A stretch of DNA of 64,000 bases from Mesostigma viride (Eukaryota > Streptophyta > Mesostigmatophyceae > Mesostigmatales > Mesostigmataceae): the NCBI GenBank assembly GCA_009746045.1, contig RPFO01000909.1:28773-92772 (forward strand), in the 5' to 3' direction. The translations under genes and the position numbers were made by a program. Below, piece after piece: positions 1 to 63,472 of this stretch; within the stretch, counting starts at the first letter, position 1; every line of letters begins with the position of its first letter. The notes below the pieces were generated by a model. It was given only the letters and a program-made list of their open reading frames with translations. It was not told the DNA's origin and ran no database searches.

Positions 1-93
1 ACTGTCATGAAATCATAGCCTTGCATCCAAGTGCACGACGCAAAGCCCCGTTGTTACCATGCGACAATCTGCAACCGTCAGCAAAAAACTTAC

Positions 94-513: not shown

Positions 514-1053
514 CTGCAGCCAATAGCCCACCCATACATGGTAGCACATGACGATGAGCTAGTGTGTAAAAAAGCTTACAAAAAAGGGGCACTACGAGGC
601 TGCAGAAGACTACATTATTGGGCAACACATACGCTTATCGTATCCTTTGGTGCATAGTGAGTGCTATTGAGATGCAAGGCAACCACATCATCCTGCAATG
701 TCGTTGCCATGTCATGTGCAATCATTCTCAGAGTGCTTCATAAAGCCCCAAGTCTTGGGCTCGAGCTTTAAACGGATTAAGCAATTATGTTAAGTGCCGG
801 CTGCCTGTTTTTCTTTACACGGTAAAAGAAAGGGACTGCATGCTTCACGGCATCCATTCACATCTTCACTAGTAGAAGGAGACAAGTGTTGCGCCCCCAA
901 CACAACAATTAAGTCCCTCAAACATAAGATCATTCTGGTACTGCCACGCCAAATATTGTAATGGTCATGCAGGCTGCATGCTGCATTTCCACCAAAGACT
1001 ATGCACTTTGTTCGTCCTCGTGTGTTGCTTGGCCCGGCCTGATGCAATAATTT
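514..1053. other. Gap between lectin exon and alpha element
   Basis: No gene is recognised. The lectin frame stays open on the minus strand to about 628; the rest shows no domain, RNA gene or repeat I can name. If the lectin and LRR exons belong to one gene this is intron. Confidence 0.4.
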
Positions 1054-8584: not shown

Positions 8585-9524
8585 TGCGTATATGCACACA
8601 TGTGCATGCATATGTCCATGCAAGGGCAAGACAGTGCAGTGCACTGCGCCAAAATACTCTACCTGTACAAAGGTTCCATGTACAATGTCTGGTTTCTTTC
8701 TCTAGGGGCGCATGCACTTAAGAGCTCAACCAAGTATAATGTTCCAACACTAGGAGCCTGAAACGAAGCGGCACGGCGCGACGCCAGTACTACAAACCCT
8801 ACAAGCACGGATGGGCGATAGTCAAGGCCAAGCGGAAGTCATCATTTCACATACCACGAAACCTAGCTCTAATTTTCCATTATGAGAGCATAATTTACCA
8901 AAAGTTGGCGTAATAATCTCACAAATTAACCAAAAACATATCTCACAAAATGCAAATCTTGCGCCGACGATGCGCCGAACAACAGTACTCAGTCCACGTG
9001 CGACCATTACTTACACGCCTAGGCCAGAAATTCGCTTCGAATGCTAGCAAAAGTATGTCAGCCATAGCATGTACACATATCAGGCAAGTGGACAAAACCC
9101 TTGAAACCATGGAAGTCCGACGGGTACTGATGAGTTGTTTGCCTGGCGGCTAGCGTCATATGCACATCGTGCCAAAGAGTACTGCCAACATGTCTGAGGA
9201 AATGTCGCGAATACAGCTATTGCCAAGAGCTGTAACATGTAGATTAGCGTGAACTAGTCAAGACGCTACTGACTTAATTTCCATTGACAAAAGTCTCTTT
9301 TTATGTCACACATACATCGGATGGATAGTGATCCCCATGGTCAAAGACAGGTTTTGGTGTGAATTCCTTTTTCTTATGTGCAGCATTGAAGACTACAAAG
9401 ATGCATGAGTGCAGGATAATGTCACTTTACACATGTATTATGTATCTGGCACATGCAGAGACCAGGCGCCTGAGATCTCCAAGACTCCAACAGACCTTAA
9501 CATACACCCGGCCCCATTGCACAA
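8585..9524. other. No recognised gene
   Basis: No domain, RNA gene or repeat family recognised. It ends where the beta element starts. Confidence 0.3.
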
Positions 9525-19853: not shown

Positions 19854-20439
19854 CTGCGATCACATGCAGTTAAAGCAGATCGATACGCGCAAGCATTGAC
19901 AACTGATGATGTTAGAAGTTAACGATAGTTGTTATTTTGCTGGGCGGCAGCGCATAAAAGTGTATAAATATGTAATTGGTTAAATCTATGACATAATATG
20001 TATAAAAGTGCCCTTTTTGATTGTTGGACATATTGCACATATGTATGTATCCATTTCTGGCCTTGCGTTGCTTTGCGTGCATCACCACAAAACATCAAAT
20101 TTATTACAATATGTGTGCTAGCTCTATACGGTGGAATAACACAGACTTGTCTACCAGATGGCAACACGGCCATCTGTATGCTAGGGTGAGCACACTATGT
20201 GAATTTGCAGGGCCAGCCCACAGCAGCTGTGCCCCTCCTCTATCCACATCTCCTTACATGGCTAACAGCCGAATATACTATATGACATGCAAAAAAGAAA
20301 ACTTAAACTACCTACAGTTAGGGGGGTACTTTCTCCCAACCCAGGTTCACCCTGGGGTTAGTTAAACCATTTCGCCCCTGACCTCCCACGCAGGGGTGAG
20401 GTCAGTTGATAGCTAAAAGACGAGAGATAAAGACAGGAA

Positions 20440-23400
20440 GACGTCAAAACACAACGCCACCGAAGTGGCGCCGAAAAGCCGCTGGGTCAAAACCCAGGGC
20501 CTGAGACCAGAGGGCTGACGGAATGTCCCGCCCCAGGAGGCTGCGGTTGAGGCCAATGTAGCGCGTGACTGAGAGGGCCGAGGCCCACCGGGCGCGCAGC
20601 TGAATGGCCTGAGTCCGGCAACTCGCCAGCGATTGCGTCGTGCGTCGCCCCCCCATGCCAGAGGCTGTGAAAAGAAAACATCCCCAGGATGCCCATGCGG
20701 GCCTGCACTGCCTCCCACTGCTGCCTAGCCAGGCTGTACATTACGCCCTGAAAAAGAAGTGCATTCGGGGGCTGGCCAGCCGTCAGGCGTCGCAGGAGCC
20801 ACAAAGAAAGTGGATCCCGAACGAGACATGCTGGGCCGCCCCCTGCGCAGTTTCGGGGTTGCACAACACAAGGGCACCGACCGTGGGCCCTTGCTCGAGA
20901 AGAGGGTGGCCAGGATGGGCCACATCCCGAACCCGCAGCCCTGGCGCCTCGCTAATGCAAAAATACTGCTGCATGGAAAGCAAGAATAATCAACGCTCTC
21001 AAACGCACCTGTTGAATTGAAATTAGCAACAGGGCAGTGAAAAAGCAGAGGCGCCAGGGCATAGGCGGAGGGCTGACAGCAAGGAACAAGCCGCTGCCAT
21101 CGTGCAAGCAGGCGGTCCGCCAGTACCCTGGAATGCCGAACAATGTCGGGGTAGTACAGGTGCAGACAGGTCTTGGTGTGCTGGCATAAGGTACGTCCCC
21201 GCCCACCTCGGGCATGGTAGACAGCAGAAATCCACTCACAGAAAATGGCTTCCGTGTTAGCTGGGTCGACGGGTCCAGGTGGCCAGCGCACACGCCACGT
21301 AGACAACCACTGCGCCCCGGTACGCTGGCAAGGTAGACACAGGGTTGACTGTGCCCTCCAGCAGTGCCAAGTCCCGAGGGCGTCGCGCCCCCTCAGGCCC
21401 AGGGTTGGGATGCACGTCACCGCACCGGGTCAAGTCAGGAATCCAGCCGCTGGCCTTGTCAGCTGGGTTGTGGTCGGTAGCCACCCAGACCCACTGGCTG
21501 TGCCTGTCACCAGCCAGCGACAGAGCCCAGTAGCGCCGATCCAGCTGGTTGAGGCGGTAGGAAGACGAACGCCCTCTGACAAACGCCTCCACACAGTACT
21601 AGAGTCCACGAGCCGGACAACCCGCTTACCTTGACACACCTTGGTCCGGCACGGCCACTCGACCCCCAGCGTCGCAGCAATCGCCTCCTTGCCGTTGATG
21701 TGTTTCCGCTGCCCCCGCCACCTGAAAGGAAGTAAGTACTTGCTTGTAATGCGCATGGGCATGCCACCGAGTACTATGCTAATCTCATTAGAAAATAATT
21801 AGACGAAAGTTACAAATATCGTCTGCATCATGCCCCAACCATGTATAGTCACTAGAGGGGGATATAATACTCATCTGAGCTGTCCTCTACTATAATGGCA
21901 GATGAGGCGGTAGTGTGGCGGCTGTCCTCAGGGCAATAACCTCCACCAGCGGACTGCTACCCTGCATTCTAGCAATAGGCCGCGGGGTCCGTGGGGAGAA
22001 AACAGGAGCATGCCCCTCAGGAATTAAGGTGCTTAATCGCAGACACCAGCCCATTTCTCCTTGTCTATCATGCGGGCGCGGAGTACAGAAAATCCCAGAA
22101 GCCCTGCATCCTCAAGCAACAGTGTCACATAGGTCCGGGTCGCGCCGCGCCGGTGCCCGGCGCGCGCAAGTTTGCCACTGGGTTGCGACGGGACAAAGGG
22201 AATCGACCTTGCCATAGGAGGAGCTGTCGACCTGGTTGGCCAATCCTAATCAAGCCCGCAGGGCCCACATCAGTATTCACCTGGTCTGTGCGGGCAAGAT
22301 GGCCGGCAAAGAGGAGGCGGCGGTGTCGGATGGTATGGGTGACAAGAGGGAGCTCGCAGTATAGAGCTCTTCCGGGGTGCGGTGCTCTTGGTAGCGGACG
22401 CCGAGGATGTGACGGGGCATTCGAGTGACAGTGCCGTCAAGCTGCTTGCTCAGCGCTTGGTCCTGAACTTCCACGCCTTGCAGCAGTAAAGGAGGATGCT
22501 GAGGACAAGGGCCTTGAACAGAATGCCGCCACCTGTAGGACAGTGCCGTACGCCCGTGGCCACCACCCAGCAGGCTGTAGTCCCCCTCCTCCATGCGCTC
22601 CAGGTTCCAGTCCTCACCACAGGTTAAAGTTGTCGTCCGCCGCCCCCGCGCTTCGCGCCGGGTTGCCAGCCAGGCACAATCAGCCCAAGGCAGGTCCCTG
22701 TATGCAGACCACCCCACCGCCTGAGCTGCTTGCGTCACTAGCGACGACCCGATCAGAAAGGGGCCCAGCCCTGGCAGCCTTTACAAAGGGGGCCAGGTCG
22801 ATCGCCGCCAGAAGCTCCTGGCGGGACCTCTCAGGGAGCCGCTAGCGGCGCCCAGGCAGGGAGGAGTTCATGGTTGCGAGCAGCCGAATGTCTCAGACCA
22901 CATGCACCGAGAGCATGGGGCGACAAAGCATGGATGCATCCACACCCGCTTCCCAAGAACAAAACTAAGTTCGCGGTAGTATATTAATCCGCGATCCAAG
23001 ATTCTATGGGTAGCAGCGATAACCGCCACCACACGCTCAAGAACACGCACCACGTCACCATCTCTTTGGTGATAGACACCCACCGCCTGCACACCAGTCT
23101 GTTCTGCCGTCGCCCGTACCATGCCTTGTCAGACTTCTGCACCAGCCCAACAGCGGCGTACGCAGCCTGAACACGATCTAGCTGCTGATTCACTCCATCT
23201 GCCGAAGCACAGTGGGTAAAACGGAGGTCATCGATCGTCACGGCATGCATATTACAAGTCCAGATCCTGCCGAGATTCGAAGCACGGCGAGGGCGCCAAG
23301 GGCGCAACAGGGTCCTCCTACAGACTAAGCCGGACAGTCTGCCCGGCCTCGTCAGCGTCCGCCACCAAAATCAGCACTGACATGTCGATGCTCAGGCCAC

Positions 23401-24346
23401 GACTAGCCTCCAACGGGGGCTTGGGGCCACAGTGGTACAGCACAGACTGGTGCACGCACTGCATGGGCCACAGCGACGACCAACTTGTTTCCCATTGGCC
23501 AGCACAACATCCACGGCAAGACCTTCCGACGCGGCCCACTAAGGCCCACAAGATCCGACCGCACCAGCATCCACGCACAATACCACCGCATCCAAGTGGG
23601 CAGGCGAGGTCAGTTGTATGTACTAGTAGGAATCCAAATCTGATCCTCCCCAACGCGCGTGGGCAAATCGCAAATCACGCCAAGGTGTGGTAAAAAAGCG
23701 GGCATAGGATCTGGTAGTGGCATGTTGCCACGACAGTTGTCCACAATCAGCCGAATATGGCCGTCGGGCTTTCCGACCATAAAAGTACTATTCACCATAG
23801 GCGGCTCCTCAAAAAATCCACCCGAAATTCGCCCTCTCCACACACACCGTGCAAACCTGCCCGAATCCTCCATGCTACACCCCCACGAGATCCGCATCAA
23901 CTTCTGCAAGATCCGCTCTATGTCCGCCACGTCCTGGTCGGTCGCCCCAGGTGGCAGCGCCATCCTCCTCCCCACCGCTAGCCCCACCATAACCCGCCCC
24001 TCCGCCCCCACCTGCCGGAGGGGGAACACCCCTTGTTCCCACCGCATCTGTTGATGCCATGGAGGATCCGGCTCTGCTATAGCTTCCCCCAGCTGCGCCG
24101 CTAGCACATCGACCAGGTCCTCCTCCCTATCCCAATCACTGACAAATCCCTTTCCTCCAGTGCGTCCATGACGTTCTCGGCACACCCCTTGTTGAGCTTC
24201 TTGATTCGCTCTAGCCAACCCCCCGCCCCAAGGATCTTCTGAACGTCCGCAGTGGCGGCCTGGCCTTTGGGGTGCATCCCACCTTGGCTGCTTGCTTGAG
24301 TTTCGCTATGAAATTGCGTTCTGGGGCTGTCACTGTCCTGGTCATG
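20440..24346 (-). pseudogene. Gag-RT-RNase H-tyrosine recombinase remnants, copy I
   Basis: Homologous to the coding region of copy II. From the right: Gag N-terminus (ends near 23920), fused in one frame (24218 to 23610) to RT with ERILQK, VGKPDGHIRLIVDN and RGNMPLPDPMPAFLPH. RT motif C follows in another frame near 23225. RNase H is split by the LINE insertion; its later part keeps WVATDHNPADKAS, followed by RCGDVHPNPGP. The recombinase part retains the HGGATHDAIAGE region and a downstream RYIGL. In the first recombinase block HxLR reads HSLWHGGATHD, so the second catalytic Arg appears replaced by Trp. Frameshifts are numerous. The copy is dead. Confidence 0.8.
21724..22525 (-). mobile_element. 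5'-truncated LINE tail inserted in RNase H
   Basis: An 802-bp insertion relative to copy II, flanked by a 9-bp direct repeat CCGCCACCT (21715-21723 and 22526-22534), a target-site duplication. On the minus strand its first part has the post-RT region of a LINE: FKALVLSILLYCCKAW, then RHILGVRYQEHRTPEELY in a shifted frame, and near the end RTYVTLLLEDAGLL with DKEKWAGV. These match the C-terminal region common to several LINE clades. No RNase H, endonuclease or poly-A tail is visible. It is a different LINE from the one at 40612. Confidence 0.75.
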
Positions 24347-24664
24347 GTGCATGGGTTGTATTGCTTGATATGTTGCCTTGCGTTTTGTTTTTTGTAATGT
24401 GGTCACGTGAGGTTCTCAGGGAAAAGAAACAACCTGCTTCCCTAGAATGGAAGCCCGCCATTTATAGCAACCACCTGTCTGGCAGCCAACCCCTACACTG
24501 TACGTGGGTGGCTGGGGTACAGGTGCCAGCACAAAAAATATTTTTCTCAAAATTATTTTTTCTTTTTGCGCTTTACGGCGTTGCATTCTCCGCTCAGCAT
24601 GCAGGTTAGCCATATGAGCATTATTAAAATGAGCAAATTAAAATGAGCATTATTAGCTCACCAA

Positions 24665-34435: not shown

Positions 34436-37400
34436 ATCAGTTTTCTCTGAACATACTTTAATTAACGCATGCCGGGAAGATAGGGCCGCTATGCCTTGGT
34501 CTGCATGTGGAAGGCTGTCTGCGACATGGGCTGACGAATTCGATTTGTGCAAAGGGTTTCATGCTCGCCTGAATTTTCCTTGGATGACCCAGTTGTTTAT
34601 AAGGGTCAGTGGCTATTAATTAGTGGTCCGAGAAAATTAATTGTAGGTTTTATGTGAAAAATGACAATGGACTGACAGGTCTTATTGCATGCAATGCTTG
34701 CTGCCTGTGCATGCTTGCCTTCGCAGGTTATCAAGCTTAGGTTGAAGAGCTGAGGTTCAAGACAGTAATGGTGTTGAGATTGGCACAAGAATGGTGGACT
34801 GGCTGTGTCCACGTTGTTTATTTCATAAGATTAGAGCTTCAGCGAGAGATACAGAACTTTCAGCGAGAGATAGAACGATGTGATTGGCTATCCCAGAATA
34901 TTCTGAGCATCATTCTGAACATCTGGTTGTGGACCAATCAGGTTGGAACAAGATCAACCTCATCCAAATGTAATCTAAAGTAATCCTAATGATATAATGT
35001 CAAAGACCCTTTCAAATGTGATCTGATGATGGAGTAAATCTGGCGTGAACATATCAGCGCCACATCTGACATGCACAGTGTACATGTCAGTCAGTCAGCT
35101 GTCCTGTCATAGATTCTCAGCTGACATGTCATAGGTCACCTGACATAAACAGATTAGTCGGCTGCCCATAAGGATCCACTTGGCATCTATAGGTATTAAT
35201 CCCTGATTACTAAAACTGGCCACAACTTTCTTGTTTGTAGGCCAAATCACACGGGGTAAAAAGCACTAGGTAAAGCACAACATCCTCTGGCTAACCAGGC
35301 AACATGCACATACACTTATGCATGCTAGGTGGGTACAAACCCCAGACATTTATAAGACTTGATTGCAAAGATTCGTATTTGGTTGCACCGGCTAAGATTA
35401 GCTGGGGACCTGTAGGGTCAGCTGGCTGCTAATGTAACGAATCTTTGACTGATTTGGTTTCTTTAGTGAGTCGTGACTAATTATTGTATAGTGGACTTGG
35501 ACCCGCCAAAGGGGACAATGGGCGAGTTTTATGTTTGTCAGTCTTGAGAACCTTGTACGACTACCTGTACGGTTAACGCACTAGCCTGGGGGTGCGTGGC
35601 CACGTTATTTGTAGTGACGTTTTCAGCACTGCTCAGGCCGGCGTGTGACGCATGCCGGTGCTACTTAACTTAGGATGATGTCAGCTTTTGTGTCGGCGGA
35701 CCATGCCTTAAGCAAGCTAGGCTGGCAATGATCCACAATTGTTTCTTTTACAATGGAGGCAATGGCCGCAGGCCTGTGCAAAATTGCACATTCTAGCGCA
35801 GGTTGCATCTGTCTTGTGGCCGAGGCAGATGGTGGCACAACCGCTAAGTTGTTCAACACAGCATGTACCAGAGTTGGCCGTGCAACCGAAGAAAATTTAA
35901 ATTTACCCCCATGTCGTTTTCCCCGGCTGCGGGTCTTGTTGACATGGGCGAAGGATGGGGCGCTACTTCGGCGGTTTGACCAGCTTCGGCGGAGCTGTTC
36001 ATAAGTTTCTAAAACAGCTCTAGTGTCACATCGCAGGCTTGCCACCTTGCGATGGTGCGTGTGACATGACCGGGACTCGATCTAAAGGTCACGACCCAGG
36101 TTCCTGTCATGCAGCGACGGCCTCTTTTCATAAATTATTTTTTGTGGCGGCAGGTCCGTTGTCCAGTTGCCCCTGCCGAGGAGGGGTAGTTGGGGACAGT
36201 CTACAGGAGTCGCGCGAGGGTTGCGCTCCGAAGCTAAAAATTATTCCCTACTGCGAGACTCAAGTCGGGGAGGGCGTCTTAGGGAGGCGAGGCAACGCCA
36301 GACCTTCGTCGTTCCTTTTCTTTTCGTCTCAGCACCTGCTGCGCCGCTCAGTCTATTATGGTGTCGTAAAACCTTTTTCCTTTTTGGATAATGCCGGCAT
36401 TGCGAAATGCTGGATTTTCTTTTGGGGCTTGCTTTTGAGGTGGTCAGCGACTTGTGTCGCATTGTGACCAGCAGGCCTGCCCCTGCGGGGATTAATATAG
36501 CCTAGAGCGGGCTGAGTCGCCATTTAAGATGTCGCGACACGCTCTTTCGCGCACGGTGGTCATGAGATTAATAGGCGCAATGGGGTTGGCGCCATGGGGG
36601 GGGGGGGTAATTGGGTGGAGGCTTCTTGCTTCCGCGAGCGGATTGAGAAACCTTAAGGCCACTGTTAACTGCTGCATTTGTAGCAGCCTGGCTCCACTTA
36701 TTGTATTCAATCAAATGCTGGTCTTCTTGGGAGCTTAGTGATCTGAATCGGTTTTCTCTGAATATAGTTTAATTAACGCATGCGGCAAAGATAGTGCCGC
36801 TATGCCTTGGCCTGCATGTGGAAGGCTGGACCTGCGACATGGGCTGACGAATTCGATTTGTGCAAAGGGTTTTATGCTCGCCTGAATCTTCCTTGGATCA
36901 CCCGGAGGTTGTTTATAAGGGTCGGTGGCTATTAAGTAGTGGTCCGACAAAATTAATTGTAGGTTTTATACGACTTGCTTGCAAAGATTCGTATTTGGTT
37001 GCACCGGCTGAAGTTAGCTGGGGACCTGACTGATTTGGTTTTTTGAGTCGTGATTAATTATTGTATAGTGGACTCGGACCCGCCCAAACGGTCGATGGGC
37101 AAGTTTTATGTTTGTCAGTCTTGAGAACCTTGTACGACTACCTGTACGGTCAACCCACTAGCCTCCTGGGGGGTGCGTGGCCACGTTATTTGTAGTGGCA
37201 TTTTCAGCACTGTACAGGCCGGTGTGTGAAACATGCCGGTGCTACTTAATTTAGGATGATGTCAGCTTGTGTGTCGGCGGACCATGCCTTATGTAAGCAA
37301 GCTAGGCTGGCCATGATCCGCGACGGTTCTTTTTCCTCCCTCCCACCCTGAATGCTTGATCTTGATTCCGCGTGCCGATTGAGAAACCTTAAGGCCACTG

Positions 37401-45412: not shown

Positions 45413-45613
45413 ATCCATTTCTGGCCTTGCCTTGCTTTGCATGCATCACCACAAAACATCAAATTTATTACAATATGTGTGCTAGCTCTATGTATACGGT
45501 GGAATAACACAGACATGTCTACCAGATGGCAACACGGCCATCTGTATGCTAGGGTGAGCACACTATGTGAATGTGCAGGGCCAGCCCACAGCAGCTGTGC
45601 CCCTGCTCTACCC
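45413..45613 (-). repeat. B2 split direct repeat, copy II
   Basis: 201 bp, matching B1 (45843-46039, 197 bp) throughout except for four extra bases at 45491-45494 that change CTCTATACGG to CTCTATGTATACGG. Confidence 0.92.
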
Positions 45614-45636
45614 CTTTTGCCAGGGTGGGGGGTGGG

Positions 45637-45844
45637 AGGCAAAAGAAACAACCTGCTTCCCTAGAATGGAAGCCCACCTTTATAGCAACCACCTCTCCAG
45701 CCAACCCCTACCTGGGTGGCTGGGGTACGGGTGCCAGCACAAAAAATATTTTTTCTAAAATTATTTTTTCTTTTGGTGCTATACGGCGTTGCATTCTCCG
45801 CTCAGCAGGTTAGTCATAGATAAAATGAGCATAGCTCACCAAAT
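45637..45844 (-). repeat. A2 split direct repeat, copy II
   Basis: 208 bp and identical to A1 at 50524-50731 on reading both in full. Diverged relatives are at 24419-24664, 54880-55092 and 58367-58507. Confidence 0.95.
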
Positions 45845-46039
45845 CCATTTCTGGCCTTGCCTTGCTTTGCATGCATCACCACAAAACATCAAATTTATTA
45901 CAATATGTGTGCTAGCTCTATACGGTGGAATAACACAGACATGTCTACCAGATGGCAACACGGCCATCTGTATGCTAGGGTGAGCACACTATGTGAATGT
46001 GCAGGGCCAGCCCACAGCAGCTGTGCCCCTGCTCTACCC
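45843..46039 (-). repeat. B1 split direct repeat, copy II
   Basis: 197 bp lying directly between the coding region and A2. Its A-side end meets A2 with a 2-bp shared overlap (AT), as expected of a joined circle junction. Confidence 0.9.
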
Positions 46040-46234
46040 ACATCTCCTTACATGGCTAACAGCCGAAAATACGTAGGACATGCAAAAAAGAAAACTTAAA
46101 CTACCTAGCTATGGGGGTACTTTGTCCCAACCCAGGTTCACCCTCGGGTTAGTTAAACCATTTCCCCCCTGACCTCCCACACAAGGGTGAGGTCAGTTGA
46201 TAGCTAAAAGACGAGAGATAAAAACAGGAGGACG

Positions 46235-48050
46235 TCAAAACTCGACGCCACCGAAGTGGCGCCGGAAAGCCGCTGGGTCAAAACCCAGGGCCTGAGCCCA
46301 GAGGGCGGGTGGGATGTCGCGCCCCAGGAGGCTGCGGTGGAGGCCAATGTAGCGCGTGACCGAGAGGGCCGAAGCCCACCGGCCGCGCAGCTGGATGGCC
46401 TCCGGCGACTCGCCAGCGATGGCGTCGTGCGTCGCCCCCCCATGCCGGAGGCTGTGAAAAGAAAACATCCCTGGGATGCCATGCGGGCCTGCACAGCCTC
46501 CCACTGCTGCCTAGCCTGGCTGTACGTTAAGCCCGAAAGAGGAGTGCATCCGGGGGCTGGCCAGCCGTCAGACGTCGCAGGAGCCACAAAGAAAGTGGAT
46601 CCCGGACGAGGACGTGCTGGGCCGCCCCCTGCGCAGTTTTGGGGTTGCGCAGCACAAGGGCACCGACCATGGGCCCTGGCTCGAGAAGGGGGTGGCCGGG
46701 ATGAGCCACATCCCGAACCCGCAGCCCTAGCGCCTCGCTAATGCGTAAATACTGCTGGAAAGCAATAATAATCAACGCACTCAAATGCACCTGTCGACGT
46801 GAAACTAGCAACAGGGCAGTGAAATAGCAAAGGCGCCAGGGCATAGGCGGAGGGCTGACAGCCGGAACAAGCCGCTGCCAACCTGCTAGCAGGCGGTCCG
46901 CCAGTACCCAATTCCGAACAATGTCGGGGTAGTACAGGTGCAGACAGGCCTTGGCATGCTGGCATAAGGTACGCCCCCGCCCGCCTCTGGCATGGTAGAC
47001 AGCAGAAATCCACTCACAGAAAATGGCTTCCGCGTCAGCTGGGTCGACAGGGCCAGGTGGCGCCCACGCCACGTAGACAGCCGCCGCACGCCGGTACGCT
47101 GGCAAGGTAGACACAGGGTTGACTGTGCCCTCCAAAAGTGCCAAGTCCCGAGGGCGTCGCGCCCCCTCAGGCCCAGGGTTGGGATGCACGTCACCACACC
47201 GGGTCAAGTCAGGAATCCAAGCGCCACGCCGACTGGCCTTGTCAGCTGGGTTGTGGTCGGTAGCCACCCAGACCCAGTGGCTCTGCATGTCGCCAGCCAG
47301 TGACAGAGCGCAGTAGCGCCGAACCAGCTGGTTGAGGCGGTAGGAAGACGACCGCCCTCTGACAAACGCCCCCACCACAGCACTGGAGTCTACGAGCCGG
47401 ACGACTCGCTTACCTCGACACGCCTTGGTCCGGCACGACCACTCGACCCCCTGTGTCGCAGCAATCGCCTCCTTGACGTTGATGTGGTTAGGCTGCCCCC
47501 GCCACCGGTAGGACAGTGCCGTACGCCAGTGGCCACTATCCAGCAGGCTGTAGTCCCCCTCCTCCATGCGCTCCAGGTCCCAGTCCTCCCCAGACGTTAA
47601 AGCTGTCGTCCGCCACCCCCGCGCTTCGCGCCGGGTCGCCAGCCGGGCACAATCGGCCCCAGGCAGGTCCCTGTAGACCACCCCACCGCCGGAGCCGCTC
47701 GCATCACTTGCGACGACCCGGTCAGAAAGGGGCCGGGCCCTGGCCGCCCTCAAAAAGGGGGCCAGGTCGATCGCCGCCTGAAGCTCCTGGCGGGCCCCCG
47801 CAGGGAGGCGCCAGCGGCGCCCAGGCAGGGAGGCATTCATGGCTGCTAGCAGCCGGTACGTCTCAGACCACACCGAAAGCATGGGGCGGCACAGCAGATG
47901 CATCCACACCCACTTCCCAAGCACAGAACTAAGTTCGCGGTAGTATGTAAACCCGCGATCTAAGATTCTATGAGTAGCAGCGATAACTGCCACCACACGC
48001 TCAGGAACAGGCACCACGTCACCATCTCTTTGGTGAATGACCCCACCGCC
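46235..48050 (-). pseudogene. RNase H and tyrosine recombinase region, copy II
   Basis: An uninterrupted 496-codon frame (48017-46527) then a shifted frame (46504-46235). RNase H occupies residues about 100-265, with acidic residues in VASDASG (D104), VKEAIAA (E183), RLVDSS (D210) and ATDHNPAD (D254). A 2A-like motif GDVHPNPGP follows at 275-283. The recombinase covers about 300 onward: first catalytic Arg in YLRISEALGLRVRDV (R425), then, after the frameshift near 46515, HSLRHGGATHD (H-x-x-R) and LRGRWASALSVTRYIG with the nucleophile Tyr. All catalytic residues of the recombinase survive apart from the frame break. The upstream end joins RT through another frameshift near 48030. Confidence 0.85.
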
Positions 48051-48059
48051 TGCACACCA

Positions 48060-48994
48060 GTCTGCTCTGCTGTCGCCCGTACCACCTTGTCAGACTTCTG
48101 CACCAGCCCAACAGCGGCGTAGGCAGCCTGAACACGATCTAGCTGCTGATTCACCCCATCCACCGACGCACAGTGGGTGAAATGGAGGTCATCGATCGTC
48201 ACAGCATGCATACCTTCCAGATCCTGCCGAGATTCGAAGCACGGCGAGGGCGCCAAGGGCGCAGCAGGGTCCTCCTCCAGCCTCAGCCGGACGGTCTCCC
48301 CCGCCTCGTTGGCCTCCGCCACCAGGATCAGCGCGGACATGTTGATGCTCAGCCCACGACTAGCCTCCAACGGCGGCTTGGGGCCACAGCGGTACAACAC
48401 AGACTGATGCACACACTGGGCCACGGCGACGGCCAGCTTGTTGCCCATTGGCCAGCACAACATCCACGGCCACACCTTCCGACGAGCCCCACTCAGGCCC
48501 ACCAGATCCGACCACACCGGCATCCACGCACAGTACCGCCGCATCCAAACTGGCAGGCGGAGTCTGTTGTAGTACGAATCCAAATCTGATACGCCCCCAA
48601 AAACATCCTCCCCAGCGCGCGTGGGCAAATCGCAAATCACGCCAAGGTGTGGTAAAAAAGCGGGCATAGGATCTGGTAGTGGCATGTTGCCACGCCGGTT
48701 GTCCACAATCAGCCGTATACGGCCGTCGGGCTTTCCGACCCCAAAAGTACCGTTCACCATAGGCGGCTCCTCCTCAAAAAATCCACCCAAAATCCCCCTC
48801 TCCACACACACCGTGCAAACCCGCGCGAACTCCTCCATGCTACACCCCCGCGAGATCCGCATCGACTTCTGCAAGATCCGCTCTGCTGGGCTCAGCGTCC
48901 GTACCATCCTACTCTCATCATTCAAAATTGCTCCCCAAGAGGGGGGTAGTAAGTTCAGCACATCCACTTGGCCACCTTCCCCCGGACCAGGCAA
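48060..48994 (-). pseudogene. Reverse transcriptase region, copy II
   Basis: RNA-dependent DNA polymerase of the element. In the frame from 48994: FGVGKPDGRIRLIVDNRRGN (finger region, residues 84-103), motif A SDLDSYYNRLRL with D137, motif B WPMGNKLAVAVAQ at about 181-193, and motif C TIDDL with D268-D269. The usual YxDD box is TIDD. The reading then shifts near 48030 into the RNase H frame. Upstream coding sequence continues in a different frame to about 49161 (MPGPLQQAALDGIDDACRSF onward), so ORF2 probably starts there. The RT is most like those of DIRS-order elements by its context; a precise clade needs a tree. Confidence 0.82.
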
Positions 48995-49357
48995 GCCAAG
49001 CGTGCGGCCACTAACGGTTCGTAAGGGGCTCCTTCAGCATATTCACCCCCATCCACTACAGATCCTGCCATTGCCGCTACGGAACCACCGTTCCGGCGGA
49101 CAAAGGACCTGCAAGCATCATCGATCCCATCTAGGGCCGCCTGCTGCAGAGGCCCGGGCACACGGGCTGAATCTACAGCAGGCGGGTCTCGCCCCCCCCC
49201 CCCATCCAGTTTAACGCCCTAACCGTCTGACAGGCTAGTGTGCGAGCATTAAAAGCCCGACTCATCCTATCGCGCCTACGGCCTGAGCGTACCTGCTGCC
49301 ACCAGTCACGAGGTGGCAGGGGTGCTGGAAGAGGTAGTGGAAGAAGGCACCGCTCCC

Positions 49358-50455
49358 TCACTTGTTGTTGTTGGACGGGCCGCCCTGCCCCTTCTTGCCG
49401 GGACCCTGCTCCAGCTTGTGCTGCAGCTTCCCCATGCTCATCGCCGCCCGCACCGCCGGAGACGCCAGCATTGCTCCACCCTCCTGGAATGGCAGCATTG
49501 CCGACGGAGTCCCCTTCCAACCCGTCGACCCCACATCCACCAGCTGGCATGCCGTGATCAGCTTTGCCAGGTACTCGGCTGCTGCCAGCTCCAGAATTAC
49601 TTCGGAGCGTGGCGTGGCCCAGTAGCCAAATTCTGTCACCATCGTGTCCAGAATTCCTGCCATCTGCAGGAGCAGCATCCTCCTCTCCCCGCTGGCTGAG
49701 CTGCCGTGCATCGTCAGCATTAACGATGCACGGATGACTTCCCCCCCACGCTCTCTGCGTAGTCCAGCATCCCGGCAGCACCGCCTCCAGCATGTTGCTC
49801 ACCAGGACCGGCACTGCATGCCCGCTCAGCGCCACCCCCTTCGTGCGCGCCAGCCTGCCAGCAGTCGCCGCTGCGGCTGGGCTTGCAGTTGCTGGAGTCT
49901 TTGCCTGGTCCAGCAGCTTCGACATGGCCGATATCAGGTCGCCAATATCTCCGCCAGTGCGGGCGTTGCCCGGCGGGATGGAAGCCCTCCCGCTGGCGTT
50001 GCATAGCCCGTCTCGGTCCCCAGCAGCCGACCTATGTTCGGTCTAGGTCCGCCACATCCTGGTCGATCGCCCCAGGGCGCCATCCTCCTCGCCAGCGCCC
50101 GGTCCACCATGCCCCGCCCCTCCGCTTCCACCTGCCGAAGGGGGAACACCCCCAGCTCCCACCCACCTGCTGACACTGGTGGATCCGGCTCTGCAATAGC
50201 CTCCCCCAGTTGCGCTGCTAGCACATCGGCCAGGGCCTCCTCCCCATCCCAGTCGCTGACAAACCCCCTTTTCTCCAACACGTCCATGACGTTCTTGGCA
50301 CGCCCCGGATTGAGCTTCTGGATCCGCTCTAGCCAATGCCCCTCCCCTAGGATCTTCTGGACCGCAGTTGCGGCCTCCTTTGGGGTGCATCCTTCCCTGG
50401 CTTCTTGCTTGAGCTTTGCTATGAAATTTCGCTCTGGGGCTGTCACTGAGGTCAT
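49358..50455 (-). pseudogene. Gag-like ORF1, copy II
   Basis: A protein upstream of RT presumed to package the element RNA. It starts MTSVTAPERNFIAKLKQEAR at 50455, continues through FVSDWDGEEALADVLAAQLG, then in other frames through VLVSNMLEAVLPG, MLDYAESV and RMLLLQMAGILDTMVTEFGY, and ends KGQGGPSNNNK with a stop at 49358. At least two frameshifts. No zinc knuckle is visible. The same segments occur in copy III (58298-57150) in equivalent order, which supports the reconstruction of its extent. The Gag assignment is by position and conservation, not by a named domain. Confidence 0.65.
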
Positions 50456-50523
50456 GGTGGGTTATAATGCTTGATGTGTTATATTGCGTTTTGTTTTTTG
50501 TGATGTGGTCACTTGAGGTTCTC

Positions 50524-50731
50524 AGGCAAAAGAAACAACCTGCTTCCCTAGAATGGAAGCCCACCTTTATAGCAACCACCTCTCCAGCCAACCCCTACCT
50601 GGGTGGCTGGGGTACGGGTGCCAGCACAAAAAATATTTTTTCTAAAATTATTTTTTCTTTTGGTGCTATACGGCGTTGCATTCTCCGCTCAGCAGGTTAG
50701 TCATAGATAAAATGAGCATAGCTCACCAAAT
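50524..50731 (-). repeat. A1 split direct repeat, copy II
   Basis: The 5' terminal repeat of the element, identical to A2. Transcription of the element would be expected to start within or next to it, and the Gag start codon lies only about 70 bp inside. Confidence 0.95.
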
Positions 50732-54879: not shown

Positions 54880-57800
54880 AGGCAAAAGAAACAACCTGCT
54901 TCCCTAGAATGGAAGACCACCATTTATAGCAACCACCTGTCCAGCCAACCCCTACCTGGGTGGCTGGGGTACAGGTGCAAGCACAAAAAATATTCTTTGA
55001 AAATTATTTTTTCTCTTTGTGCTTTACGGCGTTGCATTCTCCGCTCAGCAGGTTGGTCATATATAAAATGAGCATACAGTAGCTCACCAAATCCATTTCT
55101 GGCCTTCCTTTGCTAATTGCATGCATCACCACAAAACATCAAATTTATTACAATATGTGCGCTAGCTCTATTATACGGTGGAATAACACAGACATGTCTA
55201 CCAGATGGCAACACGGCCATCTGTATGCTAGGGTGAGCACACTATGTGAATTTGCAGGGCCAACCTAGCAGCTGTGCCCCTGCTCTAACCACATCTCCTT
55301 ACATGGCTATCAGCCCAATATACTATCTATGACATGCAAGAAAGAAAACCTTCTACCTACAGTAGGGGGGACTCTTTGTCCCGACCCAGGTTCACCCTCG
55401 GGTTAGTTATGTAAACCATTTTCCCCCTGACCTCCCTCGCAAGGGTACATAAGGTCACTAGATAGCTAAAAGACCAGAGATGAAATTTGGAAGACGTCAA
55501 AACTCGACGCCACCGAAGTGGCGCCGAGAAGCCGCTGGGTCAAAACCCAGGGCCTGAGCCCACAGGGCTGGCGGAATGTCCCGCCCCGGGAGGCTGCGGT
55601 GGAGGCCAATGTAGCGCGTGACTGAGAAGGCCGAAGCCCACCGGGCGCGCAGCTGAATGGCCTCTGGCGACTTGCCAGCGATGGCGTCGTGCGTCGCCCC
55701 CCCCATGTCGGGAGCTGTGAAAAGTAAACATCCCCAGGATGCCCATGCGGGCCTGCACTGCCTCCCACTACTGCTAGCCTCGCTGTACGTTACGTACGCC
55801 CCGAAAAAGAAGTGCATCCGGGGGCTGGCCAGCCGTCAGGCCCGTCGCAGGAGCCACAAAGAAAGTGGACGAGACATGTTGGGCCACCCCCTGCGCAGTT
55901 TCGGGGTTGCGCAGCTCAAGGGCACCGTCCGTGGGCCCTGGCTCGAGAAGGGGGGGGGGGCCAGGATGGGCCACATCCCGAGCCCGCAGCCCTAGCGCCT
56001 TGCTAATGCGTAATTACTGCTGGAAAGCAAGAATAATCAACGCCCTCAAATGCACCTGTCGACCTGAAACTAGCAACAGGGCAGTAAAATAGCAAAGGCG
56101 CACGGGCATTGGCGGTCGAGGGCTGACAGCCGGAACAAGCCGCTGCCAACCTGCTAGCAGGCGGTCCGCCAGTACCCCATTCCGAACAATGTCGGGGTAC
56201 ATAGTACAGGTGCAGACAGGCCTTGGCGTGCAGTGGCATAAGGTACGCCCCCCCCCCCTCTGGAATGGTAGACAGCAGAATCCACTCGCAGATAATGGCT
56301 TCCGCGTCAGCTGGGTCGATAGGGCCAGGTGGTGAGCACTCACGCCACGTACAAATCCGAATCTGATACGCCCCCCAAAACATCCTCCCCAGCGCGCGTG
56401 GGCAAATCGCAAATCACGCCAAGGTGTGGTAAAAAAGCGGGCATAGGATCTGGTAGTGGCATGTTGCCACGACGGTTGTCCACAATCAGCCGTATACGGC
56501 CGTCGGGCTTTCCGACCCCAAAAGTACCGTTCACCATACATGTAGGCGGCTCCTCAAAATATCCACCCAGCATCCCCCTCTCCACACACACCGTGCAAAC
56601 CCGCGCGAACTCCTCCATGCTACACCCCCGCGAGATCCGCATCGACTTCTGCGAGATCCGCTCTGCTGGGCTCTGAGCGTCCGTACCATCTTACATGAAC
56701 TCTCATCATTCAAAATTGCTCCCCAAGAGGTGGGTAGTAAGTTCAGCACATCCACTTGGCCACCTTCCCCCGGACCAGGCAAGGCCAAGCGTGCGGCTAC
56801 TAACAGTAGGTAAGGGGCTCCTTAAGCATATTCACCCCCATCCACTACAGATCCTGCCATTGCCGCTACGGAACCACCGTTCCGGCGGACAAAGGAACTG
56901 CAAGCATCATCGATCCCATCTAGGGCCGCCTGCTGCAGAGGCCCGGGCACACGGGCTGAATCTACAGCAGGCGGGTCTCGCCCCCACCCTCCATCCAGTT
57001 TAACGCCCTAACTGCTTGACAGGCTAGTGTGCGAGCTTTAAAAGCCAGACTCATCATATCGTGCCTACAGCCTAAGCGTACCTGCTGCCACCAGCCACGA
57101 GCTGGAAGCAGCGCTGGAAGAGGCAGCGGAAGGAGGTACCGCTCCCTCACTTGTTGTTGTTGGACGGGCCGCCCTGCCCCTTCTTGCCAGGACCCTGGTC
57201 CAGCTTGTGTTGCAGCTTCCCCATGCTCATCGCGGCCCGGACCGCCGGAGACGCCCACATTGCCCCACCCTCCTGGAATGGCAGCATGCCGACGGAGTGC
57301 CCTTCCAGCCCGTTGACCCCACATCCACCGGCTGACATGCCGTGACCAACTTCGCCAGGTACACACTCGTCTGCTCCAAGCTCCAGAATCACTTCGTCCG
57401 GAGCGTGGCGTTGCCCGGTAGCCGAATTCCGTGACCATCGTGTCCAGGATGCCAGCCATCCGCAGGATCAGCATGCGCCTCTCCCCGCTGGCTGTGCTGC
57501 CCCCCTGCATCGTCAGCATTATCGAGGCACGGATGGACTTCCCCCCCTGACGCTCTCCGCGTAGTCCAGCATCCCCGGCAGCACCGCCACCAGCATGTTG
57601 CTCAGCACGACCGGCACTGCATGCCCGCTAGGCGCCACAGCTCTCCCTTCGTGCGCGCCAGCCTTCCAGCAGTCGTCGCCGCCGCTGGGCTTGCAACTGC
57701 TGGAGTCTTTGCCTGGTCTGGACAGCAGCTTCGACATAGCCGCTATCAGGACGCCAATATCTCCGCCAGTGAGGGCGATGCCCGGCCGGGTTGGAAGCCC

Positions 57801-58507
57801 TCCAGCTGGGGTTGCATACATAGCCCGTCTCGGTCCCCAGCAGCCGCGACCTATGTTTCGGTCTATGTAGGTCCGCCGCATCTCTGTCGGGTGTGCACAC
57901 CTGGGCCGCCATCCTCCTCCCCACCGCCAGCCCAACCATGCCCCGCCCCTCCGCCCCCACCTGCCGGAAGGGGAATGTACCCCTTGTTCCCACCGCACCC
58001 GTTGACGCAACGGGATCCAGCTCTGCAATAGCCTCCCCCAGCTGCGCTGCTAGCACATCGAGACCAGGTCCTCGATCCTCCCCATCCCAATCGCTAACAA
58101 ACCCCCTTTCCTCCAATGCGTCCATGACGTTCTTGGCACGCCCCTTGTTGAGCTTCTTGATTCGCTCTAGCCGACCCCCCTCCCCTAGGATCTTCTGAAC
58201 CGCAGTGGCAGCCTCCTTTGGGGTGCATCCCTCCATGGCTGCTTGCTTGAGTTTCACTATATGAAATTCCGTTCCGGGGCTGTCAGTGTCGAGGTCATGG
58301 TGGGTTATAATGCTTGATGTGTTGCCTTGCGTTTTGGTTTTTGTGATGTGGTCACGTGAGGTTCTCAGGCAAAAGAAACAACCTGCTTCCCTACATAGAA
58401 TGGAAGCCCACCTTTTATACAGTAGCAACCACCTGTCCAGCCAACCCCTATTTGGGTGGCTAGGTTACAGGTGCCAGCACAAAAATATTTTTTTCTGAAA
58501 ATTATTT
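54880..58507 (-). mobile_element. Tyrosine-recombinase retroelement, copy III (deleted)
   Basis: On the minus strand: A1 (58507-58367, outer end lost), Gag, N-terminal RT, recombinase, B1 (about 55290-55091), A2 (55092-54880). The B2 repeat is missing at the left end. A deletion of about 1.5 kb joins the recombinase N-terminus to the RT at about 56345-56350, removing the catalytic half of RT and all of RNase H. The copy differs from copy II by many small insertions at TA sites listed in the findings. Confidence 0.88.
55466..58298 (-). pseudogene. Gag, partial RT and recombinase remnants, copy III
   Basis: Gag from 58298 in several frames (KGRAKNVMDALEERGFVSDW, VLSNMLVAVLPGMLDYAESV, RMLILRMAGILDTMVTEFGY, KGQGGPSNNNK at about 57150). 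RT N-terminus at 56642-56340 ends after VGKPDGRIRLIVDNRRGNMP and DLPTRAGED, before the catalytic Asp. Recombinase part 56330-55497 keeps LRVRDVAHPG-like sequence, then RWASAFSVTRYIG with the Tyr. The HxxR box is degraded. Non-functional. Confidence 0.8.
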
Positions 58508-59039
58508 GGGACCATACATGTAAGCGTCAGCCATAACTCATGGCTAGGACATTATGTAGGCATATTCAAACGTAGGTTGTGCACATCTTCCTTAACAATG
58601 CTCAATGTGGCGGCGGTGATCAATAGCAATTGTCAGATCTACAACATCATCATCTAGATGTCGCCGCAATTCCATCAACCAATTATTAAGGTACGTCCGC
58701 TGGGTCATTTCGTAACAGGATGGCCTGCAATCTTTTGCACTATGCGTGACGACATTGGTAGACCTAGTAGGCGAGCCGGCACTCAAGGACAGCTCAGCAT
58801 ACATATGTAGCGCCGGACAGCACTTAGTTGGACAAGTAATATCCGTCAGCATAAATGCAACATGCCTAGTCGAGTCATCAAACGGCCTCAGTGAAAATAG
58901 AGTACATATGTAGGCGCATTAATATAAATACCACTACGCCTCTCCTTGCATGGACGGCCAATTTGTACATAATCACGACTTTGGGCGCACATGGGCTTAA
59001 ATCAAAATTTATAGCCCAAACAATATGTATATGTACATA
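58508..59039. other. No recognised gene
   Basis: Unassigned; the part near 58575-58620 resembles 34070-34130. A minus-strand open frame of 86 codons at 58592-58852 has no recognised domain. Confidence 0.35.
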
Positions 59040-60180
59040 CAGATTGTACAAGACCTGTTGACTGTAAAATTACCAACCACAATTTCTTGCCAATTGACCC
59101 CAGCTGGGGCCGGTCCGAGTCCAAATTATACAGAATCTACATAATAGATAGTAATTAATCACGACTTACCAAAACTCTCCGACATTCAGATTGGTCAGGC
59201 ATGCAACTGGGTCATCCGATCCACAGGTCCCTTTAACATCATACATATGTATATAGCCGGTGCACAGTTAACAACCAATTACGAATCTTGGTAAGCAAGA
59301 CGTAGAAAGAAACAATGGCGGATCATAGCCAGCCTAGCTTGCTTAATGCATGGTCCCCGGACACACAAACTGGCATCATCCTAAATTAAGTAACACCGGC
59401 ATGCGTCACACGCCGGCCTGAACAGACAGTGCTGAAAACGCCACTAGAAACAACGTGGCCACGCACCCCAAGGCTACTGCGTTAACCGTACACGTAATTG
59501 TACAAGGTTCTCAAGACTGACAACATGAAACTCACCCATCGACCCCTTGGGCCGGTCCGAATCCACTATACAATAATTAATCACGACTCACTAAAAAACC
59601 AATTTAATCAGTCAAAGATTCGTTATAAAACCAGCCAACCCTACAGGTCCCCAGCTGATCTCAGCCGGTGCAACCAAATATGTACGAATCTTTGCAAGCA
59701 AGTCGTACGTATAAAACCTACAACTAATTTCCTCGGACCACTATGTAATTAATAGCCACCGACCTTTATAAACAACCGGGGCATCCAAGAGAGATTCCGG
59801 CAGGCGAGCATGAAACCCTTTGTACAGATCGAATTAGTCAGCCCATGTCGCAGACAGCCTTCCACATGCAGGCCAAGGCATAGCCGCCCTAACTTTCCCG
59901 CATGCGTTAAGTTAAACTATATTCAGAGAAAAGGAATTCTATTACTTAGTTTTCCGGACCATGCACCTATATAACAACAGCCGCCGACCATTAATACAAC
60001 CGGGTTCCCGGTCCTTCAAAGAAAATTTGGCGCTCAGCTTGGAACCCTTTGGAAAATCAAGTCAACCCATGTCGTAGACAGCCCTCCACATATGCCCTCC
60101 ACATATGTATCACCGCAGGCCAAGCCATAGAGGCCCTATCAATCGATCCGCATGCGTTATAATTAATCTATACATATATA
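59040..60180 (-). mobile_element. Tandem beta A-repeat remnants
   Basis: The main copy (59300-59934) is a nearly full beta A repeat on the minus strand with about 25 bp of adjoining body. Degenerate A-like copies precede (about 59095-59299, with GGGGCCGGTCCGAGTCCA) and follow it (59935-60180, with CGCATGCGTTATAATTAA). B repeats are not evident. This looks like an array of solo A repeats of different ages. Confidence 0.7.
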
Positions 60181-60506
60181 CTTCCAGACAGTGACGTGAA
60201 GTATGTAAACACGTATCATTACATGCTATGAGCCTCATGTCTGCCTTAGACATAACATTCATGATGTCACATCAGTCATCACATTATTAGATGGAACCGA
60301 TGTCATCATGATGATGATGACACACATGCCAGCCAAGCATTGACCTTGAAGCTAACACATATGGTGCACATCACACCAAGGTACAGTCAGTGCCACTTTT
60401 CATGCAAGCAAGTGCTGCCACAAGTGATCCATGTACTACATTATATGTACCCAACCGTGAGTGAATGACTCAGCCTAAAGCAAGCAATACAGCTGCGATG
60501 TAGTAT

Positions 60507-60590
60507 TAGCGATGAATGGCAATAGCAATAGCGATGAATGGCACTAGCAATAGCGATGAATGGCAATAGCAATAGCGATGAATGGCATAT
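60507..60590 (+). repeat. 22-bp tandem repeat
   Basis: Nearly four units of TAGCGATGAATGGCAATAGC plus two bases, starting at 60507, 60529, 60551 and 60573, with a single A/C difference in unit two. Confidence 0.93.
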
Positions 60591-61579
60591 ATAAACTGCC
60601 GGGTGTAGAACTTCGAGCCCGTTTCAAGAACTATGTACACAATTCTCAAAACCGACTACATAATTCTCAGCTCATGAATAATTAAATCAGCAACTATCTA
60701 AGCCAGCTGAAAATATATTGTGGGCATGTGCGAGGCATGTGGGACATTCCTAACAAACCCGGCCTTAGGCCTAATACCTCCGCTTACAACATTATGGCAA
60801 CTGAAATACTAAAAACGTAAGGAAGCAGTCAATTGGCACACACTGGGTTAAATTCAACCCTTGACACTGTCCATACCTTGCTTGTGAACGCAAGCGTCCT
60901 CGTTTGCAAATTGCAAGCCTCACAATTGTTTAACCTCGATCGCGTGACAGCCATGTATTGAGACGACACCAGCATTGATCAATCGAATAATTGTCACGGC
61001 TTTATATTCTCGAATTTTCAGGAAGGCGTGGTGGCCTGATTGAATGCCGGAGGCTGGCAGCTCCTCTTAAAAACATTGAGTAGCTCAGAGCTACGTACAT
61101 GTACATACACTGAAGTGTCGACATAGTTTTGTCAATGCATCTACATATGCATGTAGTACATACAGTCAGCGAATGCATTCGTCACGTGAGAAATATATTT
61201 GTGGACAGCATGGCATACGCACCGCTCGAGGTCACTTACATGCTTGTAACGCGGCCAGCTGCGTTCGAGAAAACGTAAGCAAAAGTTGTGATGGGATTCT
61301 CGACGGACCAAGAGCTCAGTGCAGGAGGGTCACCGAGCCCAGCCTTGAGGGCGAGCAGGTGCTCTTTGTCATCTGCTGGGTTCGGCCATCCATGGCCAAG
61401 AGGGACAACAGCCCTGGAGTTGGGTTAGAAAGATTTCAACATACTTACATATTAGTAGAGGCGGAAAAACATGCTTCATTTATAATTAATATTCATAATT
61501 TCATATTGATATCACAAAATACCACGGCTGCAGCCCCAGAGGCAGTGTACCTAACCCAGCTCAAGATTAACTACATTGT

Positions 61580-61664
61580 AGTAGTGTACATACATGTAGT
61601 GTACATACATGTAGTGTACTACATGTAGTGTACATACATGTAGTGTACTACATGTAGTACATAC
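61580..61664 (+). repeat. TACATGTAG-rich tandem repeat
   Basis: Alternating 15-bp (GTGTACATACATGTA) and 14-bp (GTGTACTACATGTA) units. Each contains the palindrome TACATGTA; the two unit types differ by TACATACATGTA versus TACTACATGTA. Confidence 0.9.
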
Positions 61665-63472
61665 TTAAATATATTAGACGTTTTCTTGGATTTTTCCCCA
61701 TTGGCATGTCCGATTGCTTTCTGGGGACAGGACATACAGTACCAGTGTATCTAACGGGCACTTTTCTGGGCCCCATACCTTAGCATGTGGCAAACAGCCT
61801 CCCTAAAAATTGGAGCTCATTAGAACTGACAACAATTAACGTGTAAGTTATATGGTTTGGCAGTTGGCCACCCAGTGTGCAGACGCTAAGGAACTTAGGC
61901 AATAGTGAGTATTAAGGCCCACTAACTAACACTTCGTATGCCATCCAAAAGGCTCCACACCATGCCAATTATTTGACCACAACGCACAAGGACGTGGCTG
62001 GGCACATCATGTGCCCTGGCCTTACCTCGGCACGGGCAACCTTATGTGGGTGTGTACAGCAACAAGGCAGGTAGCTAGAATGCCTAGCCAACACTTCTAA
62101 AGCATATTTAAGGTTTATGGTGTGAGCATCATACCAATTCAAACGCACCCTCAATGTAGAAAGCCATATCCACTATTAATTGCCCAACCATGCAAGGTTT
62201 ACTAAAAACAGTCTGTCGGTCTGACAGGACTTTATCGGAGAAAGCATAAGTATCATACATACATACTGCTTCAAGCCATTGAAGGGTTCTTACCATGGTT
62301 ACCTTGCCTTGCTTGCATATGATAATAGGTCTCTCCCATTTTAGTGGGAGAAAGGCCAATAAGACAACAATAACCCGAGGGCCTCAGTACCTACGTGCAG
62401 TTCCAACCATGCAGTACTTATGGGCCCCTCAGAACAACCACTGCCACCTTTCTTTCCAGAGCAACTGTTTGCGAAGAAACAACCTCGAGTTTGTGAGCCT
62501 CTAACCACAATGAAGCCGCTGCTAAGAAAGGCTGCGTCAATATTCATATAAAACTGAGTGATGTTAATAGCAAACTTCTTCCAAGATACCGCTCAACAAT
62601 TCCCTGACAGCTTGTCGAGATGCCACGGCTCACGCTTTGACACGTCCCAGCCATGCAACATGGATAAAAACACTGAAAGGTGCCAGGAATCCGGCGATGC
62701 AATTAGCATGGAATGGCATGCTACCTGGCGCTAATTGCACGGAAAGTTTAGCCAAAAACTTGCGTTGTAACCCTTTTAAGGAAGCGAAACATTAATGAGG
62801 CGACGCTGAGCACACGATGGTATACCATTAACGGCATTGGACATCCTTCGCACAGCGGCGCAAGAAAGAACTGAACCTTCCGTGGAATACATATTAGGAC
62901 GCGCATCCCGCGAGCCTGGAGAGTGTCTTACCCATAATGACGGAAATCTTGCCGAAACCCAACAAAAATTTTAAATGTTAACCAATAACAATTTAATAAA
63001 ACGCATCCTTGACAATAATTGAAGCGCACTAAACCAGACAACAATCACGGCCGCCATGCAGCGTGCTTGCAATCTCATGTATTCCTCTCGACAAAAATTT
63101 CAGATTGGACCCCCGTGGCGATCAGGTAATCAATAAAATCATCGACACTGCAAAACGCACAAACTCCGCCATGAAGTCAAATCATTAAGAAATTGTTTAA
63201 AAATTCAGATTCGCATTCAGATTCGCACGATTTCTCTGCATTCCGTGAGCTATCTTTGTCTACTTTGCCTGAAAGCACGTCGCCATGGCCAGCTCCGGTA
63301 GAGGTGCGCGCACCGTGCACCACTTTTTCACGGTACGGACGGACCTACCGCCAATTTTTTCAGCACCATAAAATTCGTGCTGGGACCGTCACCTTAAGCT
63401 CGATGCGAAACGCATTAGTTTTGCAAGTTGCGCAAGTTCCATAAGTAATGTGTTTCGCATTATTTAACTGAG

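Follow-up and report, generated by a model that had tools for sequence, protein, structure and literature searches.

Excision of mariner-type elements is described as keeping the target duplication together with bits of the element ends (PMC4561436). Excision footprints have also been described for Stowaway elements (PMC1925063), and the ZB element leaves footprints of 0–3 bp (PMC7913693). One class of the small insertions analyzed here resembles those of Tc1/mariner and Stowaway elements in that a TA duplication is kept with a few nucleotides of one or both ends (PMC1925063, PMC4561436, PMC7913693); it differs in that the scars are dense in old repeat copies, filled TA sites are rare, and the donor is putative. 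Excision of the Ac/Ds type, by comparison, leaves palindromes of the flank (PMC4561436).

A second class contains reverse-complement copies of adjacent letters. Its closest counterpart is four-point short-range template switching, in which a local sequence is copied as its reverse complement between a switch point and a return point, and copies that extend across the switch point imply that the other strand served as the template, as they do here (PMC7954356). The work on great apes deals with mutation clusters (PMC7954356), whereas the copied piece here is 2–4 nt long, lies at the insertion point itself, and is seen in 58 of 131 small insertions. The class also recalls Ac/Ds-type footprints, in which the added bases form a palindrome with the flank (PMC4561436), although the duplication here is 0–2 bp and the order of letters in copies that straddle the insertion point does not suit hairpin opening. 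Our search of the openly accessible literature on small palindromic or inverted insertions found no report of exactly such a signature. We favor, with a probability of about 0.68, a mixture of two processes: excision footprints of a TA-targeting element and very short strand switches that give inverted copies.

Materials and Methods

The window, a 64,000-nt stretch of Mesostigma viride DNA, is the end of the 92,772-base contig C1628 in a genome of 440 Mb and 2,243 contigs. Its main repeat occurs in three copies on the + strand. Copy I (20049–24589) is old, with 22 insertions in 3.7 kb aligned. Copy II (45413–50684) is young, with 3 private substitutions in 5,269 positions and one insertion. 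Copy III (54880–58507) is old and has an internal deletion, with 33 insertions (13 + 20) of all lengths in 3.5 kb aligned. The second repeat is the long terminal repeat (LTR) at 9523–10130. By our own reading, both main repeat families are probably retroelements; the main repeat appears to contain reverse-transcriptase, RNase H, and tyrosine-recombinase-like frames, and a Pfam scan of four of its frames gave no match at E 0.001.

For comparison, 20 more copies of the main element and 8 of the second repeat were fetched. Insertions were polarized with panels of 7 element copies (6 for copy II) and 8 LTR copies, covering 68,382 and 4,354 aligned bases, respectively; the old window copies of element and LTR total 10,156 nt. 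The count of inverted copies was made on 131 insertions, omitting lengths of 1 nt or >5 nt, insertions flagged beside another gap, and the genome-wide alleles of C1628, which the panel set already covered, and of the diverged C1391, C1435, and C1868; the C1779 allele was added by eye. A terminal-repeat segment with a usual inner length of 68–69 nt was read genome-wide in 598 copies. The first 80 letters of its 48 insertion alleles were used, and those of C96, C1578, and C1837 were left unclassed. The LTR family was also read genome-wide. One tally omitted C1635, which contains a large local duplication.

Insertions That Restore TA

The earlier note on this DNA had listed ten TA-type words in copy III and compared them with excision footprints of Tc1/mariner elements. 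All ten strings are present on the + strand, and eight are insertions into TA, or into a TA-containing word, relative to other genomic copies. The panel has a plain TA at TACAGTA (55075–55081), TATGTA (55408–55413 and 57864–57869), TACATA (56198–56203), and TACATGTA (56537–56544), the last being a 6-nt insertion of the both-ends form TA-CATG-TA. TACATA at 57817–57822 stands against CATA in the panel and can equally be read as a tandem copy of CATA. TACATA at 58392–58397 and TACAGTA at 58418–58424 stand against TA both in the panel and in the element's own left terminal repeat. Of the remaining two words, TACGTA (55791–55796) appears in a 13-row alignment as a private insertion of 4 nt, TACG, that could just as well be a tandem copy; the panel run left it uncalled. 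TACAGTA (55358–55364) has an ambiguous ancestor, in keeping with the looser match already remarked on there.

The terminal repeats of copy III thus differ, with TACATA and TACAGTA on the right and plain TA on the left. Provided that both repeats began identical, these two insertions postdate the arrival of the element. Read or assembly error, which the earlier note named as a possible undoing of its case, is an unlikely source of the insertions because the insertion alleles are spread over several contigs of multi-megabase length and one odd allele, ACC-G-ACC, is found on two contigs.

The preference of insertions for TA, for which a test had been proposed, is strong. The old window copies hold 36 insertions of 4–8 nt, polarized against other genomic copies. 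TA is restored in 14, as compared to a null mean of 0.69 and a maximum of 5 in 2,000 replicates, and a 2-bp direct duplication is present in 24 (null mean 5.68). When the letters of each insert are permuted in place, the null values become 2.44 for TA (maximum 9) and 6.70 for the duplication. A process confined to TA does not account for the whole set: 10 of the 24 duplicating insertions sit at other dinucleotides. TA events are a minority of the small insertions, a point absent from the earlier note, so that its comparison with Tc1/mariner footprints suits the TA class, but not most of the small insertions in the same copies.

The letters between the two TAs are few in kind. Among 18 distinct TA events of 4–5 nt, the middle is TG in eight, CA in five, CTG in two, CAG in two, and CTA in one; 17 of the 18 are therefore TG, CA, CTG, or CAG, consistent with a putative donor with CAG...CTG ends. 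Both panels and the genome-wide lists together give 60 distinct 4-nt insertions, of which 13 have the form TA-NN-TA, NN being TG (8) or CA (5), and seven, that at 57817 among them, are 4-bp tandem copies. Longer middles include CACTA and the two-ended forms CATG, CACTG, and CACGGTG. Slippage or microsatellite growth was rejected as the source because TA events add letters that are absent at the site; tandem copies (25/131) were set apart.

Similar events occur elsewhere in the window and the genome. Young copy II carries a recent TATGTA (45489–45494, +), copy I carries TACACTGTA in the both-ends form (24494–24502, +), and one LTR copy has TATGTA (37290–37295, +) where a neighboring copy has TA. 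By eye, nine of the 48 genome-wide insertion alleles of the terminal-repeat segment belong to the TA class, two of them the window's own and another, TACAGTACTGTA at C1713, a stacked footprint. A tenth, TAGCTA, can be read just as well as a tandem copy, and five more are plain changes of TA to TATA. Among 16 genome-wide alleles of the LTR family, one is TACACGGTGTA and one contains TATGTA. Unpolarized indels in other repeats supply ten further TA events, with middles TG (4), CA (2), CTG, CAG, GG, and G (1 each). TACATA occurs 96 times in the window outside the element against 38.7 expected (52 against 23.1 in the flanks of other loci), and TACAGTA 33 times against 7.1 (11 against 6.0). The densest cluster of TACATA and TACATGTA words in the window lies at 58500–62000.

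These features suggest how the TA class may have arisen. A cut-and-paste element of the Tc1/mariner/pogo kind, with ends of the CAG...CTG type, would insert at TA and duplicate it. When the element leaves, 2–3 nt of one or both of its ends would stay behind, giving TA-(CA, TG, CAG, CTG, CATG, CACTG)-TA.

Insertions That Carry Inverted Copies

The 131 distinct insertions of 2–5 nt comprise 18 TA events, 25 tandem copies, and 88 others. Of these 88, 58 reproduce in reverse complement the 2–4 nt found at the insertion point, whereas chance would give about 12; the other 30 fit neither the TA nor the inverted class. At lengths of 2, 3, 4, and 5 nt, the counts are 13/18, 18/28, 27/40, and 0/2, against null means of 3.97, 4.65, 3.41, and 0.05, and the null maxima at the first three lengths are 10, 11, and 9 in 500 replicates.

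Three forms recur. The simplest converts XY to XY-rc(XY)-XY, as in AA-TT-AA, TG-CA-TG, TC-GA-TC, CT-AG-CT, and GG-CC-GG. Copy I has TG-CA-TG at 20970–20975 (from TG), 23460–23465, and 24348–24353, and CA-TG-CA, from CA, at 22901–22906; copy III has TC-GA-TC, from TC, at 58072–58077 (all +). The other two forms straddle the insertion point. XYZ becomes XY-rc(XYZ)-YZ, as in CTC to CT-GAG-TC (20609–20615, +), and XYZW becomes XY-rc(XYZW)-ZW, as in TCCA to TC-TGGA-CA (57717–57724, +). Straddling copies make up 7 of the 28 insertions of 3 nt (null 1.10, maximum 6 in 1,000) and 13 of the 40 of 4 nt (null 0.79, maximum 5), twenty events altogether.

The excess extends to repeats outside the element, where unpolarized indels, with the tandem-array loci L014 and L021 omitted, contain inverted copies in 45 of 99 cases as compared to about 13 expected (20/36, 8/16, 17/39, and 0/8 at lengths 2–5, against 7.1, 2.7, 3.2, and 0.2). 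The excess is weaker in the LTR set. The LTR copies of the window give 1/6, 3/6, 6/21, and 1/4 at the same lengths, with nulls of 1.5, 0.8, 1.8, and 0.1, so that it is absent at length 2 and present at length 4; LTR copies of two other loci have inverted copies in 0 of 7. An LTR pair in the window differs by the inverted copy T-AA-T, present in one member (11353–11360, +) and absent in the other (9523–10130). A less strict palindrome test, run earlier, gave a positive result in the window (33/55, expected 17.0) and at L018 (12/17, expected 5.2) but no excess among insertions outside these two (8/17, expected 5.5). One LTR allele (G000:C1010:133683-133770) contains, as judged by eye, a 34-nt perfect palindrome that arose when about 17 nt were copied in inverted orientation.

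The straddling copies of 3–4 nt need a template that is intact across the insertion point and point to strand switching over a very short distance. Where DNA synthesis stalls or the DNA is broken, it would switch to the opposite strand for 2–4 nt at the same place and then switch back. The main rival, which we consider unlikely, holds that the inverted copies are scars left by a CACTA-like transposon that forms hairpins and duplicates 2 bp of its target. Hairpins can open with 2-nt ends. Annealing of opened hairpins with such palindromic ends would convert XY...XY to XY-rc(XY)-XY, and this rule describes the middle in 13 of the 18 non-TA 4-nt insertions with a 2–3 bp duplication (shuffle mean 2.26). 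The flank-palindromic footprints of Ac/Ds (PMC4561436) offer a precedent, and genes with the CACTA transposase domain Tnp2 (PF02992) are abundant: 239 candidates gave 150 scored matches, and many of these share the same score and have open frames. This search was made after the inverted class had pointed to such an element. However, the straddling events place the complement of the right flank before that of the left, an order that hairpin opening does not yield. The ends and the duplication length of a CACTA element were also searched for and not located; two near-identical copies were rejected as a guide to the ends because both are part of a more extensive duplication that lacks a CACTA-like end at its right edge. 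On account of the straddling forms, we rank strand switching first and hairpin footprints second for the inverted class.

It is improbable that a single process underlies both classes, with every insertion an end-joining scar made by local templating and TA-CA-TA an erroneous TA-TA-TA. TACATA and TATGTA are each one transition from TATATA, and TG and CA are frequent in both classes, which favors such a process. The middles CAG, CTG, CACTG, and CATG, however, are not near copies of TA, and the TATATA product itself is absent among the 60 insertions of 4 nt.

Insertion Load between Loci

Small insertions outnumber deletions. In the terminal-repeat segment, insertions of 2 nt or more are present in 48 of 598 copies, a figure that includes a few larger duplications or diverged copies, and deletions in 11, a ratio of 4.4; the inner length is 67–70 nt in 539 copies, 71–100 nt in 48, and 41–66 nt in 11. 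Tentatively, and with some doubt, we suggest that a distinct, locally intense process inserts reverse-complement copies of the 2–4 nt at the insertion point and contributes to the several-fold excess of small insertions over deletions.

Loci differ greatly in their load of insertions. Private substitutions and insertions of 2 nt or more number 288 and 50 in copies I and III, 206 and 1 in L013, 137 and 3 in L010, 33 and 0 in L017, and 44 and 20 in L018; private substitutions are not a clock here, being inflated in copies of thinly sampled subfamilies. Copies of the panel's own subfamily differ too, as the values for L017 and L018 illustrate. Many of the insertions in the segment L018:4742-6642 form palindromes, and private substitutions are denser there also, though L018 has few overall.

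We regard it as highly improbable that the insertions were errors of reverse transcription, made while the retroelements were copied. In favor of this reading, both main families are apparently retroelements, and L018, with few private substitutions, has nearly all of its 23 insertions (20 of them of 2 nt or more) within about 1.8 kb. Terminal repeats belonging to the same element nevertheless differ from each other. Moreover, of seven long segments with <10 private substitutions, four lack insertions of ≥2 nt altogether and three carry a single one, as compared to 50 in copies I and III together.

Donor and Resident Elements

The donor family of the TA footprints was not found. When inverted repeats with TA flanks were sought by structure, allowing ≤2 mismatches in 14 nt, no clear CAG-ended element emerged; one candidate starts with CAG but lies within a repeat tangle in L023. 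The examined copies contain one filled TA site, as compared to 18 distinct TA scars. A TA-flanked element of 188 nt with CACCCC...GGGGTG ends is present at L011:6313-6500, and it was rejected as the main donor because its 25-nt end word matches only 15 places at ≤3 mismatches. Transposase genes of the Tc1/mariner/pogo superfamily are present in the genome. The pogo-type domain DDE_1 has 33 matches, the best four in open frames of 411–816 aa, and DDE_3 has 96, most of them within atypical ORFs that reach about 1,400 aa; one or two of the latter appear, by our own reading, to be of the classic Tc1 type. The proposal of a TA-targeting element with CA or CAG termini, intensely active in the past, is partly supported: a rare CA...TG element and pogo-type genes exist, but no abundant CAG-ended donor was found. 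The earlier note had offered a programmed excision system as an alternative, and nothing in our analysis supports one. Ciliate internal eliminated sequences have similar TA boundaries and CAG ends, but we judge programmed excision to be very improbable here: the copies examined show only one filled TA site, and scars, numerous in the old copies of the window, are sparse in young copies.

Several other features were recorded. The DDE_3-like motif of L065 (C487:26067-29073) and most of the other DDE_3 matches sit in such long open frames; many of them share the same score, and small contigs often carry them. At L065 and L067 the DDE_3-like frame is followed by a gene that looks viral by our own reading. 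The ends of the element that holds the DDE_3 ORF were looked for and not found; one contig stops there, with the virus-like gene next. L009:2392-6316 holds a hAT-like insert of 3,909 nt, whose inverted ends are CAGTGTTTCTGC and whose duplication is 8 bp long, and L011:3839-4807 an insert of 969 nt with TTAA-like ends and CCC...GGG, piggyBac-like by look. An 803-nt insert in copy I (window 21715–22533) lacks clear inverted ends, and its ends overlap by 8 bp. Further filled sites contain a 584-nt element (L023), a 617-nt insert (L014), and a 28-nt insert (L018), and one LTR copy of the window contains a 695-nt insert. A frame with a C-type lectin domain (Pfam PF00059) lies at window 5–628 (−).

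Conclusions

Small insertions are usually ascribed to slippage, whereas two other sources appear to account for 76 of the 131 examined here, and the TA and inverted sources can be separated letter by letter. Because high-copy repeats supply hundreds of aligned sites, excision scars and ultra-short strand switching may become countable within one genome, and their patchiness between loci could be related to chromatin, age, or repair.
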